Of a stretch of DNA of 33,488 nt, positions 16,871 through 23,628 are shown one piece after another. The stretch comes from Treponema sp. GTDB taxonomy: Bacteria; Spirochaetota; Spirochaetia; Treponematales; Treponemataceae. Under the pieces are notes generated by a model. The model did no database searches. It saw only the letters and a program-made list of their open reading frames with translations, and was not told where the DNA came from. The DNA is taken from contig JAEEKM010000075.1 in NCBI GenBank assembly GCA_016282455.1, positions 1-33,488 of the forward strand, given 5' to 3'. Made by a program: the position numbers and the translations under genes. Within the stretch, counting starts at the first letter, position 1; the number at the start of each line of letters is the position of its first letter.

Positions 16871-18280
16871 TTATTTACCGCTAAAAAAATCCACTTCTGG
16901 TATTTTCCAGGGGTCTTTGGAAATTGCAGGACTGCCGCGGAATTTTTTCCAGCCAAGGTAAAGTTCACGGGGAGAGAAGAGGGCAATCTGCTCGTTTGTT
17001 TCGGGGTCTGTGGTAAGGGTTTCGTTACAGACTTTGACGATGGAATCTTCAATGCTGCGCGGGTTGTCATTGCTGTAAAGAAGAATTCTGTTGCGGATTT
17101 CTTCTGAAAGAACTGCCGGTAAAAATTCTCTTAACATGCCGCTGCTTTCAAGCCAGTTTTCGTAAAAGTTATCAAGCACAAAATCCCTGAGCTGTTCGTG
17201 AGTGTAATCTTTTATTTCAAAAATTTTAAGCCGGTTCAGAATTGGAGCGGGAATGCCGTCCAGCTTGTTTGCAGTGAAGATGTAATTTATTCCCGAAGCA
17301 TCCACATTTATTCCAAGGTAGTTGTTAAAGAAACGCCTGGAATTGCTTTTTTCCAGGATGGAATAGAAGATTGTTTCAATGCTGTGATTCTGGTCACCTT
17401 TTATTTTATCCAGTTCGTCAAAGAGAATGATGGGATTTTTAGTGGGTCTTCCGTCACTGTCTGCAAACATTGATTCTACAATGAGTCCGTGACTGGAACT
17501 TTTATAAGCAGGATCAGACCCGGAGAGGGTAAAGTTTGCAACATCATTTCCAAGGTCAATTTTGACTGGTGGTTTTCCCATAAGGATCATGCATAAGTCT
17601 CTGGCAAAAGAACTTTTTCCGCAGCCTGGGCCGCCTAAAAGTACAAAGGGTTTAAAACTTAAAGCTCCGTTTTTCTTAAGTCTGGAAGCATTTGCATTTT
17701 GCAGCATATAGTCAATTACGTCCTTCATGTTGGGATACTTTTTTTCAAGGTCCTTAATTTTTTGAAGTGTATCTTCGTCAATGCAGATGTATTTGGGCTT
17801 ACCATTAAGTTTATTATAAACACTATCCAGTTTAGATGTGTCCGCATTATCAAGGGCAAGCAGGTGGTCATCGTAATTTTCTGCTTCAATGATGGAATCA
17901 TTTTCTTCTCCGAACCAGCCGGGAATTTTTTCTTTGGCAAAATAAGAAACACTATGAGTTTCATTTACAGGACAGAGTATAGGCATCCTGTGCACTCTTT
18001 CTGCAAAAAAATATTTTTCACAATTCTTGCAGTGCATGATAAAGACTGGCTTTTCTGTCTTATCTGAAGAGAGGAAAGTCAAAGTTCCGTCAGGAAAAAT
18101 GAGAATAACTTTTTGTCCCTGCCTTAAATAGTCTGCTTTGTAGCAGGACTTATCTTCCAGAATGATAAGCTTTTGATCTTTTAGTTCAAAAGTTTCACTG
18201 TCCTCATGATAGACTGAAGAAATTTTTAGTGCATCTAAAACTTCAGACATTCTTCTTAGGGTGTTGCTTGGGTACTGCAT
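16871..18280 (-). CDS. Lon-like AAA+ ATPase without a Lon protease domain, with an N-terminal Cys motif
   Basis: Walker A GGPGCGKSS, Walker B PIILFDELDKI, Lon-like stretch NYLGINVDASGINYIFTANKLDGIPAPILNRLKIFEIKDYTHEQ. N-terminal HCKNCEKYFF...ILCPV resembles an incomplete zinc ribbon. Only about 60 residues follow the lid region. SD GGAGG upstream. Confidence 0.8.
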   Translation of the reverse strand: MQYPSNTLRRMSEVLDALKISSVYHEDSETFELKDQKLIILEDKSCYKADYLRQGQKVILIFPDGTLTFLSSDKTEKPVFIMHCKNCEKYFFAERVHRMPILCPVNETHSVSYFAKEKIPGWFGEENDSIIEAENYDDHLLALDNADTSKLDSVYNKLNGKPKYICIDEDTLQKIKDLEKKYPNMKDVIDYMLQNANASRLKKNGALSFKPFVLLGGPGCGKSSFARDLCMILMGKPPVKIDLGNDVANFTLSGSDPAYKSSSHGLIVESMFADSDGRPTKNPIILFDELDKIKGDQNHSIETIFYSILEKSNSRRFFNNYLGINVDASGINYIFTANKLDGIPAPILNRLKIFEIKDYTHEQLRDFVLDNFYENWLESSGMLREFLPAVLSEEIRNRILLYSNDNPRSIEDSIVKVCNETLTTDPETNEQIALFSPRELYLGWKKFRGSPAISKDPWKIPEVDFFSGK

Positions 18281-18300
18281 TTTCTAACCTCCGTATTTAT

Positions 18301-20445
18301 TTAGAAACCTATCTTGTGGTTTTCCCAGCTGCGTGTTTTTCCATGAACTATTTTGCATAGTTCTTCCGTTACATAGGCGGCATTTACCTTTTCTTTTTTC
18401 ATGAACTTTATCCTTCCGCTCAGGGCACCAAAGTCTCCGGGAGTAACATCTCCTGACTGGTAAATTTTTTCTACCTGATTTGGACTGATTTTTAAGTCCT
18501 TAAAGTAACTTTTACAAAGCAGGTTTACTCCGTCTTTTGTTAAAGGCTTAAAGTCCACTTTTAAGTTGAACCTTCTGTCTGTTGCTTTGTCCAGGCTTTC
18601 TGCAAGGTTTGTGTTGCAGAAGAGAATGCCCTTGAACTGATCCATTTGTAAAAGAAACTCATTTACCTTTAAGTCGTTGTGCCTGTTAAGGCTGTCTCCG
18701 CGGCTGTGAATAAAAGAATCTGCTTCATCAATGAGAAGGATTGCTTTTTTTTCTGCAGCGTTGTCAAAGGCAGCCTTTATGTTCTGTTCTGTTTCGCCTA
18801 CATAGGGGCTAATTATTTCTGAGGCACGGATTATGATAAGGGGTCTGCCCATACGCATAGCAATATTTTCTACATAAGCGGTTTTACCTGTTCCGGAAAG
18901 ACCAGAGAGGAGAATGTGTATTCCCGTAAATTGATCGGATTCTTCTTTCATGGAATCGTTTGCTGCCTGGAGCATTTCTGTGAGTTCCTGGACTGAATAA
19001 GAGGTATTAAGGGCTTCAAGACAATAACTGGGATTGTTTCTTATGTTGTCCGCATGGGGAGAATATTTTTTGTTCAGAAGTTTTGACCTTTCTTCTGCAT
19101 TAAGAAACTCTGTGTGTTTTAGAACATTAGTAAACTCTTCCCATTTATCCGGCTCAAGTTTTAGTTCTTCCATTTTATCTACGGCAACAGCAATTAAATC
19201 TGGAGAGAGCTGCTGTTCAAAAAAATATTCGGCAAGTTCTGTTTTGTCTTTTCTGTGTCTGGGAAGTTTTAGGTTTGTCCAGTAAAGAAGATCTACTCCA
19301 TGTTTTTCAAGTGCATGTTTTTTATCTTTCTCAAAATTACCTGAAGAAATAATGACGGGTACTTTTACGGCTTTAAGGACATTGGAAGAATTTTTCTGTA
19401 TTCTTTCTTCGCATAAGAGATAGTTATCTGCAAGATTTTTTGGAAGAAAGAAAATGCCATTACTGTTCTGGAGTGTAACCGAATAGGCATAAAGATAAAA
19501 TGAAAACTCGGTTAAATCTGCATGAGGGAACTCCTGCCGGATTTCATAGAGGCTTTGAAGTGAATCTTCACAAAGACTGGCAATAAAATTTTTGTTGCGG
19601 AAATCACTTTCGCTTTTGATGAGCATGAAGCAGCCTTTTTTATCTTCTTTGTATTCATGAACCTGCTCAAACATGATGTAAAAGTTTTCTTTGTTTAACT
19701 CCGACATATCTTCATAACTGTACAAATCCTGATTGGGCTTAAAGACTACCGGCTTGACTGTAAAAGAAGGATTGTCCTTTATGAAAAAGGAATAAACAAA
19801 TTCTTCTACGGTCCAGGCGTCAGAAAAGAGGTTGAGGTTTATTAACTCGTTGTTCAGTTTTCTTGTGTAGGAAACTTTAGACTGACTTTTGATATTGCAG
19901 ATGGAACAAAAAAGTTTTGCCTTGTATTCATCAGAATAGGAAGAGGGAAAAAGCCAGCCCCAGTCTCTGTTCAGAAGAGCAAGAATGAGAAGTTTTTTAC
20001 AATCTTCGGAAAGTCCCAGTCCCTTGCAAAAAGACTGAAAGAAAACATTGTTGAATACTTTTTCCAGAGGGGAAAGTTCTTTTTCTTCCGCCCTTTTTTT
20101 TTCTTCGACTATAAATAAAATTATACTGTATTTTTCTGAGTCTGATTTTAAATCGCTGCAAAAACTTTTAAAGACCTCTTCGGGATCAAAGTTGTTTTTT
20201 TGTAATCTCTGAAATTTTTCATTTTCCTTTTTCTCAAGAAAGTTCAGATAAACATTCAAGACTTTTGTAATATCTGAGTTTGTGAGAACAAGCTGGAGAA
20301 ACTCAGGATCACTTTCATGGTCAGAAAGACTGATGAGAGAAAAATTGTGTAAAAAGATCTGACCGGAGATTTCTTTGCTGTTAACATCAAGAACAGTATT
20401 TTTTAAAAGCTCGTTTTCTAAAAAGAAATTCTTTTCTTTTTCCAT
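18301..20445 (-). CDS. Classic-type AAA ATPase (COG0464-like) with long N-terminal region
   Basis: Walker A SGLSGTGKTAYVENIAMRMGRPLIIIRASEIISPYVGETEQNIKAAF, Walker B AILLIDEADSF, sensor CNTN, RRF arginine region. SD GAGGTG before the ATG at 20445. Confidence 0.85.
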   Translation of the reverse strand: MEKEKNFFLENELLKNTVLDVNSKEISGQIFLHNFSLISLSDHESDPEFLQLVLTNSDITKVLNVYLNFLEKKENEKFQRLQKNNFDPEEVFKSFCSDLKSDSEKYSIILFIVEEKKRAEEKELSPLEKVFNNVFFQSFCKGLGLSEDCKKLLILALLNRDWGWLFPSSYSDEYKAKLFCSICNIKSQSKVSYTRKLNNELINLNLFSDAWTVEEFVYSFFIKDNPSFTVKPVVFKPNQDLYSYEDMSELNKENFYIMFEQVHEYKEDKKGCFMLIKSESDFRNKNFIASLCEDSLQSLYEIRQEFPHADLTEFSFYLYAYSVTLQNSNGIFFLPKNLADNYLLCEERIQKNSSNVLKAVKVPVIISSGNFEKDKKHALEKHGVDLLYWTNLKLPRHRKDKTELAEYFFEQQLSPDLIAVAVDKMEELKLEPDKWEEFTNVLKHTEFLNAEERSKLLNKKYSPHADNIRNNPSYCLEALNTSYSVQELTEMLQAANDSMKEESDQFTGIHILLSGLSGTGKTAYVENIAMRMGRPLIIIRASEIISPYVGETEQNIKAAFDNAAEKKAILLIDEADSFIHSRGDSLNRHNDLKVNEFLLQMDQFKGILFCNTNLAESLDKATDRRFNLKVDFKPLTKDGVNLLCKSYFKDLKISPNQVEKIYQSGDVTPGDFGALSGRIKFMKKEKVNAAYVTEELCKIVHGKTRSWENHKIGF

Positions 20446-20515: not shown

Positions 20516-22264
20516 TTATAATTTATTATTTTCTGAAATACTCAGAAGTTCTTTTTTTGCATTTTCAATTTCTTTTTTGTATTGTCTGCTTAAGCGCTGA
20601 AGATTTTTATATCTTCGTTCAATTTCTTTTTGTTCTGCAAAGGGTTTGCCTGGTATAGTCATTTTTTCAAGATTCTCTTTTGAGATTGCAGGAAGTTTTG
20701 CTCCGCTTGTCAGGGAATGTAAATACTTCTGTCCGCTTGTAGATTCAAGATAGAGCTTAAGATAACAGGGGTTGAAAATCTGTTTGTATTGGTCTCTGAT
20801 TCTTATGACAAAAAGATTTGAGGCAGGAATTACAGCCAGGGAAGAGTCTTCGAATAGTGCAACTTTAAAAGCAGGATAAGAAGTTTTTGTGATTAGGACG
20901 TCTCCTGGCTTAAGGAGGTATTTATTCCAGCTGTTTTTTATGTCAGAAAGACGGGTCATATTTTCGTATTCAATTTCTCCGTCCTGAATGTCTGAAACAC
21001 TCATGTAACGGTAGGGAGTGTTACCGCTGGTTTCTGCTTCCCTTATGCCGGCTGTGTCCTGAAGCCCGCGGAATATTTCTGCATGATTCTTCAGTTCCTC
21101 AAAAGGTTTTGTGTAGTTTTCCAGGAACTCAATCGGATCAAAGGGTTTTGTTGTTTCAAACACAAAGTTTTTTGCTTCCAGATCTTTACAGGTTACTTCG
21201 TTTCTTTCTACGCCGTATCTGTCGCTGTGCTTTAAGCCCAGAAAATGATTTATAATATCTTCATCGTCTTTAAAAACTTCTGTAAGGGATTTTTCTTTTA
21301 AGGGAATCATTACACTGGAAAGGTCTAGAAAGATTATTTTATCTTCCGTGTTGTTTTTGTCAAAGATGAGCAGGGTTGAAACAAGATTTTTCGGGTAAAC
21401 TTCTCCTGCAGGAAACCTTATGAGTCCTTTAAAAAATCCGCACTGGCAGATTGTTTTTCTGAGTTCTGTGTTTTTTTCTGAATAGAGAATGTCAGAAATG
21501 CAGATTATTGCACGGCCATTTTTGTCTAAGTGGTTAAGAACATTTGTCAGGCAGGAAAGAGATTCATCCTGAGAGTCAATGTAATTTTTTACCATTCGGT
21601 TTGGGGTCTGGGAAAAAGAATTTTTGAAGAGGGGAATGAAGGAATATATTTTGTTAAAAAGTCTTTTTTCATTTTTTATTCCATCTTCTTTTATGCAGAT
21701 TTCTATCTGTTTGTTTTCCGGGAAAATTATGTCATTGTATAAAAGTAAAAAATCTCGGACTTCTTTAGAAGAAGTGTAAGAGACGGGTTTTGTGTTAAAG
21801 GTAAAATTTATTTCCGGATTGTTCATCAGTTCTGAAAGGAAACTTTCCGGTGCTCCATAAAAATCTGCAAGACGGTCACTTTCTGAGAGGTCCAAAAGTT
21901 TTGAAACCAGGCGGCACATGCCGGGGGTGGAATACATTTCTTCGTGCTGCTGCAGGGTACTCAGCCTGAAGGATTTAAAATAACTGTGAATGCGCTTTTC
22001 GCTGTAACGTTCAAAATCTTCTGCGGAAAAATCTTCGGGAAGGGTTTGAAGGTTTGCTCTTAAGATGTCTTTTATTTCCTGAGTAACCCTAAGTTCTTCT
22101 ATGAGAAGGGAGAGGTCAGGATTTGCTTTTATATTCTGTTCTAAGGTTTTGTATAAAATGTAGATAAGGCAGTAGGAGGGCATCTTCGTTTTTGTAAATA
22201 CATTTCCCCTGCGGTTTTCTTCCAGTTCATCAATCATATTGGTCTCTGAAATAATATAATACAA
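20516..22264 (-). CDS. HsdM-like (N-6 DNA methylase fold) protein fused to one HsdS-type TRD; catalytic motifs degenerate
   Basis: HsdM-like landmarks: EMYSTPGMCRLVSKLLDL, LNHLDKNGRAIICISDILYSEKNTELRKTICQCGFFKGLIRFPAGEVYPKNLVSTLLIFDK. HsdS-like TRD: YRYMSVSDIQDG...LLKPGDVLITKTSYPAFKVALFEDSSLAVIPASNLFVIRI...SGAKLPAISKENLEKMTIPGKPFAEQKEI. Start is TTG at 22264 or ATG at 22237. Confidence 0.8.
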   Translation of the reverse strand: MYYIISETNMIDELEENRRGNVFTKTKMPSYCLIYILYKTLEQNIKANPDLSLLIEELRVTQEIKDILRANLQTLPEDFSAEDFERYSEKRIHSYFKSFRLSTLQQHEEMYSTPGMCRLVSKLLDLSESDRLADFYGAPESFLSELMNNPEINFTFNTKPVSYTSSKEVRDFLLLYNDIIFPENKQIEICIKEDGIKNEKRLFNKIYSFIPLFKNSFSQTPNRMVKNYIDSQDESLSCLTNVLNHLDKNGRAIICISDILYSEKNTELRKTICQCGFFKGLIRFPAGEVYPKNLVSTLLIFDKNNTEDKIIFLDLSSVMIPLKEKSLTEVFKDDEDIINHFLGLKHSDRYGVERNEVTCKDLEAKNFVFETTKPFDPIEFLENYTKPFEELKNHAEIFRGLQDTAGIREAETSGNTPYRYMSVSDIQDGEIEYENMTRLSDIKNSWNKYLLKPGDVLITKTSYPAFKVALFEDSSLAVIPASNLFVIRIRDQYKQIFNPCYLKLYLESTSGQKYLHSLTSGAKLPAISKENLEKMTIPGKPFAEQKEIERRYKNLQRLSRQYKKEIENAKKELLSISENNKL

Positions 22265-22288: not shown

Positions 22289-22567
22289 TTAGTACTTCTG
22301 TGGAATAAAGCAGGTTTGTACCAGGTCGTTCAAATCGCATTTAAAGATGGTTTTGATTTTTACCAGATTTTTAAGACTTGGGCTGCTTTTTCCTTCCATC
22401 CAGTTGTAGATTGCCTGCTGACAGGTAAAACCCAAAAGCTCCGACAGCTGGTTGAGTGTCATGTTGTTTTCAATGCACATGTCTCTGATTTTTCTTCCTG
22501 TAGCCGCATTGTTAACTGAAATTTCATCAATTTCCTGACGAATTGCCATAAATTCCCTGTTTCCCAT
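22289..22567 (-). CDS. XRE-family helix-turn-helix regulator
   Basis: GRKIRDMCIENNMTLNQLSELLGFTCQQAIYNWMEGKSSPSLKNLVKIKTIFKCDLNDLV is a Cro/CI-type HTH. AGGAGG upstream of the ATG at 22567. Confidence 0.9.
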   Translation of the reverse strand: MGNREFMAIRQEIDEISVNNAATGRKIRDMCIENNMTLNQLSELLGFTCQQAIYNWMEGKSSPSLKNLVKIKTIFKCDLNDLVQTCFIPQKY

Positions 22568-22586: not shown

Positions 22587-22670
22587 TTTGAATATGCATA
22601 TCTGCTATAAATATAATATAGCAGGAGGCTTATGTTTTGTCAAGAAAAAAGTTGTATATGCATATTCAAA
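22587..22670 (-). promoter_or_regulatory. Operon promoter flanked by paired inverted operator-like sites
   Basis: Minus strand TTGACA (22643-22638), N17, TATATT (22620-22615). TTTGAATATGCATAT (22587-22601) and its exact reverse complement ATATGCATATTCAAA (22656-22670) flank it. Confidence 0.8.
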
Positions 22671-22690
22671 TTAAATAAAAGATAAAAAAA

Positions 22691-22770
22691 AGGGGATGTC
22701 CCAAAAGTACTAATGGTGGTGGTTGAGGTTCTCGAAACCACCAAAGACATTCAACTTTCAGGACATCCCT
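22691..22770 (-). terminator. Long nested hairpin, terminator-like on the minus strand, downstream of the amino-acid SBP gene
   Basis: Outer arms GGGATGTCC (22693-22701) / GGACATCCC (22761-22769); inner arms GGTGGTT (22718-22724) / AACCACC (22736-22742). On the minus strand the outer stem is followed by a T-rich run. Confidence 0.55.
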
Positions 22771-22800
22771 TATGGACAAAAGAAGTATTTTACAGGATTT

Positions 22801-23628
22801 TTAGAGTTTTCCTCCTTCTACTACAAGGCTGTCGGCATCGCTTTCGGGACCGTAAACTTCGCGCAGGGTTGCTTCATAGTCTGCGTGGAAGAAGTTTTCT
22901 TCACCGAGTTTTTTGATCTCTTCGTTAAGCCAGTTAAGAAGGTCTGTGTTGCCTTTTTTTACGGCAGGGTTGATTGTGTCAAGGTTACCGAGACTGTCAA
23001 TTCCTACAGCATAACCTGGGTTTTCTATTGCCCATGCCAGAACTTCTGTGTTGTCTGTGCTGAAGGCATCTCCGCGGCCGTCAAGAAGTGCCTTGTAGGT
23101 GTCTGAATAAAGGTCAAACTTAAGAAGCTTTACTTCAGGATAGTTTTCCGTAAAGTAGGTTTCTGCAGTGGTTCCTTTTGCAACAATAAGGGTTTTTCCG
23201 TTAAGCTGTTCGGGGCTTGTAATTTCTCCGTTTGGAGAGACAACTCCGAGGGCAACTTTCATGTAGGGAAGGGCAAAGTCCACTTTTTCTGAGCGCTCAG
23301 GGGTAAGGGTAAAGTTTGCAAGAACAATGTCTACTTTGTTAGTTTCTAGAACTTCCACACGGGCGGCGGGTTCAACAGGAACAAACTGCACTTTTACGCC
23401 AAGATCTTTTGCAATGCGGTTTGCAAAGTATACGTCGTAACCCTGGTAGATTCCGTTTTCGTCAACATAACCGAAGGGTTTTTTGTCGCTGAATACGGCA
23501 ATTTTTACAGTCTTGCTTTTTTTAATCTGGGCTACAGTGCGGCCTGGCTTTGGTTTTGCCCATGCTGATGTTGCTGAAATAAGTGCCAGTGCGGCGGCGG
23601 TGATTTTAATCAATGTGCTTTTTTTCAT
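22801..23628 (-). CDS. Polar amino-acid ABC transporter substrate-binding protein (SBP family 3)
   Basis: Signal peptide, then VKIAVFSDKKPFGYVDENGIYQGYDVYFANRIAKDLGVKVQFVPVEPAARVEVLETNKVDIVLANFTLTPERSEKVDFALPYM. Confidence 0.93.
   Translation of the reverse strand: MKKSTLIKITAAALALISATSAWAKPKPGRTVAQIKKSKTVKIAVFSDKKPFGYVDENGIYQGYDVYFANRIAKDLGVKVQFVPVEPAARVEVLETNKVDIVLANFTLTPERSEKVDFALPYMKVALGVVSPNGEITSPEQLNGKTLIVAKGTTAETYFTENYPEVKLLKFDLYSDTYKALLDGRGDAFSTDNTEVLAWAIENPGYAVGIDSLGNLDTINPAVKKGNTDLLNWLNEEIKKLGEENFFHADYEATLREVYGPESDADSLVVEGGKL

Follow-up and report, generated by a model that had tools for sequence, protein, structure and literature searches.

Paired palindromes bracket the promoter of a probable XRE autoregulator heading an unnamed gene cassette in Treponema

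Our analysis of a 33,488-nucleotide stretch of Treponema DNA (the window) suggests that a small XRE-family regulator of rumen-type Treponema is probably a negative autoregulator, acting by occlusion of RNA polymerase from two palindromic sites, one on each side of its own promoter. A concrete putative operator pair is thereby defined for an unnamed Treponema gene module, and the promoter layout stays constant while the operator letters are exchanged together with the regulator. The regulatory logic is known and ordinary, and the present case is a fresh instance of it; the cassette that the XRE heads may be new.

The regulator gene (22289 to 22567, minus strand) encodes a 92-aa protein, presumed to be an autorepressor, that belongs to Pfam HTH_3 (E = 6.4e-8; 32.9 bits, cut-off 23) and has a conserved HTH, with residues Q51, A52, Y54, N55 and W56 invariant in four orthologous (clade A) proteins (alignment A1). 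The sequence-only reading had placed a minus-strand promoter, TTGACA-N17-TATATT, upstream of this gene, and we confirmed it, with the -35 hexamer at 22638 to 22643, the spacer at 22637 to 22621 and the -10 hexamer at 22615 to 22620; judging from the position of the -10, transcription would start near 22608. The two perfect 15-bp inverted copies described in that reading are equally real: TTTGAATATGCATAT lies at 22587 to 22601 on the plus strand and its exact reverse complement at 22656 to 22670, so that copies of opposite orientation stand on either side of the XRE promoter. Matches to TTTGAATATGCATAT with at most two mismatches numbered three in the window, compared to 0.11 expected from dinucleotide shuffles of the window, and none of 100 shuffles reached three. 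No further copy with one mismatch or fewer occurred in the 2.15-Mb assembly, in which the next-best 15-mers had two mismatches.

For a bound dimer, the relevant spacing is set by the palindrome centres and not by the 15-mer centres. The spacing of about 69 bp given earlier holds for the latter; measured between the palindrome centres it is 64 bp. The distal site is a longer near-palindrome, TTGTATATGCATATTCAA (22652 to 22669; distal operator O_D, TTGAATATGCATATACAA on the minus strand), centred 17 bp upstream of TTGACA, at about -52.5. The proximal operator O_P (GCAGATATGCATATTCAA on the minus strand, 22588 to 22605) is centred 47 bp downstream of the start of TTGACA, about +12 from the putative +1; it overlies the transcription start, and its distance to the promoter is variable among loci. 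The 5' leader RNA has an ordinary structure (z = -0.38), and a hairpin acting in this RNA was rejected on the same value. Because the RNA is not unusually structured, O_D and O_P more likely act as DNA.

Lack of conservation in orthologous loci had been named beforehand as a refuting outcome, and the operator pair passed this test: both sites were found around the promoter in the Treponema genomes G133, G070 and G137. We searched 275 genomes of the family for the XRE together with its downstream partner gene, and searched the GTDB species collection for the partner gene, a pseudo-methyltransferase, whose alignment there returned three genomes only, all already known. Clade A comprises five XRE loci (the query, G133, G101, G070 and G137), whose proteins are 44–47% identical to the query (45–47% in G133, G070 and G137), although their independence is limited by the 83% identity between the G133 and G137 XREs. 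Each of the four loci whose upstream sequence is long enough has both operators, and the fifth, G101, has the proximal site, TGAATATGCATATTCA, inside which its contig starts. In G133, G070 and G137 the promoter between the two sites reads TTGACA-N17-TATNTT, and the site pair was matched in 0 of 5000 shuffles in each. TATNTT thus follows N17 in 4/4 clade A loci, and TTGACA is invariant in these four and in the clade B loci described below. Relative to TTGACA, the distal centre is at -17 in each of the four complete loci, and the proximal centres are at +47, +53, +51 and +54, giving centre-to-centre distances of 64, 70, 68 and 71 bp. From 18 half-sites we derived the consensus TTGAATATG (full site TTGAATATG|CATATTCAA), in which T at -4 and G at -1 are invariant and A at -5 and at -3 occurs in 17/18. 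The core ATGCAT varies, being GTGCAT and ACGCAT in G070 and G137, and distal and proximal sequences differ within each of G133, G070 and G137; in the G133 pair, CGATATGCATAACC and GAATATGCATATTC, for example, neither site is an exact inverted copy of the other. Palindromes that recur upstream of orthologous regulator genes, as these do, are a mark of autoregulators.

A second XRE type, about 20% identical to the query XRE, is paired with a pseudo-methyltransferase in six genomes (clade B: G227, G177, G193, G107, G208 and G176), and this pair is divergent from the gene for the ATPase AAA1 in five contigs (G227, G177, G193, G107 and G208). In G193, G107, G208 and G176 (clade B1), the XRE promoter TTGACA-N17-TATATT lies between two palindromes of the GGAGANNTCTCC type, GGAGAAATCTCC or GGAGATTTCTCC at -9 and GGAGAGTTCTCC at +46 or +49, with centres 55 or 58 bp apart. 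The XREs of these four genomes are 93–99% identical and therefore represent one lineage, and no clear palindrome pair was found at the G227 and G177 XRE promoters, which limits the argument from clade B. The bracketed layout is the same in both clades and the operator letters differ along with the regulator, as is expected of a true XRE-operator pair.

The pattern is also rare at the genome scale. Scanning 200 genomes of the genus for the distal half-core plus promoter (YGCATA-N13-TTGACA-N17-TATNTT) gave six matches, four of which are the clade A XRE promoters; the remaining two have neither a second site nor an XRE gene, and a reversed-pattern control gave no match in the same genomes. The query genome contains just two other sites one mismatch from GAATATGCATATTC, so that an XRE regulon is unlikely; in this genome the operator is private to the XRE promoter.

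The earlier reading had also noted a third palindrome, CTGCTATA-N7-TATAGCAG, over the -10 (22602 to 22624). The inverted repeat is present in the sequence, but as an operator it is near chance level and not conserved. When the 130-bp region was shuffled, 5.3% of the shuffled sequences contained an equally good inverted repeat, and repeats of this type are absent in the orthologues G133, G070 and G137, G070 having by eye at most a degraded version, CTGTATG-N7-CATACGG. Because it is not conserved and has this frequency in shuffles, the third palindrome is probably coincidental, and we dropped it as an operator.

We propose that XRE dimers would bind the two palindromes flanking a strong sigma-70 promoter. 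Positions near -52 and +12 lie at either edge of the RNA polymerase footprint. The distal dimer would cover about -61 to -44, at the upstream edge, where the underlying AT-rich DNA is the expected contact of the alpha-CTD, and the proximal dimer would sit on the first transcribed bases (about +4 to +21). Each dimer could occlude one edge of the polymerase, with the proximal dimer able to double as a roadblock, and their joint effect would be to hold a cassette of XRE, pseudo-methyltransferase/specificity protein, AAA1 and AAA2 at a low steady level. Entry of the cassette into an XRE-free cell would then be expected to produce a burst of expression. We infer XRE binding, its repressive effect, occlusion in preference to looping, and a single transcript of the four genes. 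That a restriction-like cassette should be kept under tight autorepression hints that overproducing its proteins would be costly.

Because the distal spacing is fixed, the main rival to occlusion is dual control resembling that of C proteins, in which XRE at low level would activate from the distal site and at high level would repress by filling the proximal site, resulting in a delayed, self-limited burst. A fixed distal spacing is equally expected of an activator site, and its constancy beside a varying proximal spacing is what one would see if only the distal dimer touched the polymerase. However, a promoter with a consensus -35, an N17 spacer and a good -10 should not need activation, a centre near -52 is not, to our knowledge, a classical activating position, and the PDB matches at E ≤ 1e-3 included no C-protein structure. 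C proteins are small restriction-modification regulators, one of them with roadblock action, but in a typical C-box a pair of dimer sites precedes a weak promoter (PMC6237814), and on balance we consider such dual control unlikely. A short DNA loop joining two XRE dimers, which the sequence-only reading had allowed beside two-site binding, could likewise account for two conserved operators at one promoter. The distances of 64, 68, 70 and 71 bp in clade A and 55 and 58 bp in clade B nevertheless fall at scattered helical phases, whereas a looping repressor would conserve its phase, and the 92-aa XRE consists of an HTH and short tails only, with no tetramerisation domain evident in Pfam or the alignment. 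Since no helical phase is common to these distances, repression through a loop is very unlikely, and of the earlier claim it is the two-site autoregulator that stands, with both sites kept and changing together with the XRE.

Two further explanations give the sites a different role. Exact inverted repeats flank the query promoter, and the 15-bp copies could be recombination sites of an invertible, phase-variable promoter. Yet such repeats would be kept nearly identical in relatives, and the sites in G133, G070 and G137 are not exact inverted copies, although each keeps its place at the promoter; the promoter orientation is the same across all loci, and none of the genes tested in and beside the cassette was recognised as a recombinase. 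An invertible promoter is thus extremely improbable. The sites could also bind another regulator, or be methylation or specificity targets of the pseudo-methyltransferase/specificity protein, given that the cassette encodes a DNA-specificity domain and that ATGCAT is a plausible 6-bp target. This is highly doubtful, as ATGCAT gives way to GTGCAT and ACGCAT in G070 and G137, every homologue lacks methyltransferase motifs I and IV, and the sites track the XRE clade.

Occlusion by two XRE dimers has several parallels among described autoregulators. Autorepression of the lambda cI/Cro type and bracketed promoters of the GalR type both rely on HTH dimers bound to palindromes, with operators flanking promoters. 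The Treponema locus differs from these: its operators do not form an adjacent cooperative cluster, and nothing points to looping under a phase constraint. Among the cases that we found, C proteins and RptR are the nearest described small autoregulators heading restriction-type cassettes. Like C.Kpn2I, whose downstream site can act as a roadblock (PMC6237814), the XRE is a small HTH regulator of a restriction-type cassette that would control its own expression. C.Kpn2I, however, binds within its own reading frame, and in C-boxes both dimer sites are upstream of a weak promoter, whereas the Treponema sites are 55–71 bp apart and stand on opposite sides of a strong consensus promoter, one before it and one after it. 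The cassette also departs from the C-protein operon with its active methyltransferase and endonuclease, since the methyltransferase motifs are absent (17 homologues) and no nuclease domain was recognised in it in Pfam, NCBIfam or PADLOC. RptR is the first gene and autorepressor of a type I restriction/DarTG2 island and acts at three 6-bp TAGCTA palindromes overlapping the -10 (PMC12255303). The XRE similarly heads its island, has several palindromes at its own promoter, and is conserved with its sites across genomes, but its sites are two palindromes of about 18 bp that bracket the promoter.

The second gene of the cassette (20516 to 22264, minus strand) encodes a pseudo-N6-methyltransferase fused to a type I specificity (S) domain (Pfam N6_Mtase and Methylase_S). 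With an AlphaFold2 model of intermediate quality (mean pLDDT 66), Foldseek gave matches to CamA (E = 1.9e-15) and StySJI HsdM (E = 2.7e-13) with modest TM-scores (0.3–0.5), so that the protein is predicted to have the methyltransferase plus specificity-domain fusion fold. Pattern matching found neither motif I (DPxxGxG) nor motif IV (N/D-PP-F/Y/W) in any of 17 homologues, the aligned stretches in the query being DFYGAPESF and IPLF, and because of this absence the protein is probably a non-methylating DNA reader. The motif-less fused family was seen in Treponema in the window and at L010, L039, L040, L041–L053, L156, L159, L166 and L167; the window's own genome contains a second, divergent member (G000:C350:763-1680, L041; 27% identity). 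On a Lactococcus plasmid, a homologue belongs to a type I locus that contains neither an XRE nor an AAA partner.

The remaining two genes, also on the minus strand, encode AAA+ ATPases. In AAA1 (714 aa, 18301 to 20445), an IetA/CDC48-like AAA domain is preceded by a long N-terminal region of no recognised fold, and the structure prediction for the protein (mean pLDDT 43.8, from two input sequences) was set aside; AAA2 (469 aa, 16871 to 18280) is a Lon-like ATPase module without protease. AAA2 orthologues occur in 17 Treponemataceae genomes, and AAA1 directly adjoins AAA2 in at least 13, including the query; a first AAA1 scan of genome contigs had returned no relative. The AAA1-AAA2 tandem (window 16871 to 20445; L042, L044, L151–L153, L156–L161, L163 and L164) is sometimes divergent from an XRE-pseudo-methyltransferase pair and sometimes alone, and more distant AAA1-like ATPases lie a few kb from other pseudo-methyltransferase genes (L048 403-2574, L052 1649-3973 and L055 9082-11277). 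In G227, AAA1 (L042 4189-6373) is split into two overlapping open frames of 98 and 644 aa, possibly owing to a frameshift or sequencing error.

As a set, the cassette was named by no library that we searched. It does not correspond to the MADS anti-phage system, as the S-like domain alone matches Mad5, with 40.6 bits against an equivalog cut-off of 400, or to IetAS, as AAA1 reaches 83 bits against the IetA equivalog cut-off of 510 and there is no protease among the four cassette genes. A defence role may be suspected. We tentatively suggest, as a possibility and no firmer, that the cassette is a DNA-surveillance or defence system not described before: the catalytically dead methyltransferase/specificity fusion would recognise DNA, the two AAA+ ATPases would act on it, and the XRE would silence the cassette, with an operator that varies by lineage under a fixed bracketed layout.

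Elsewhere in the window, positions 22689 to 22772 contain a long inverted repeat, AAGGGGATGTCC ... GGACATCCCTT, followed by a T-run on the minus strand, just downstream of a gene encoding a family 3 solute-binding protein (22801 to 23628). This repeat looks like the terminator of the solute-binding protein gene, separating that gene from the XRE promoter.
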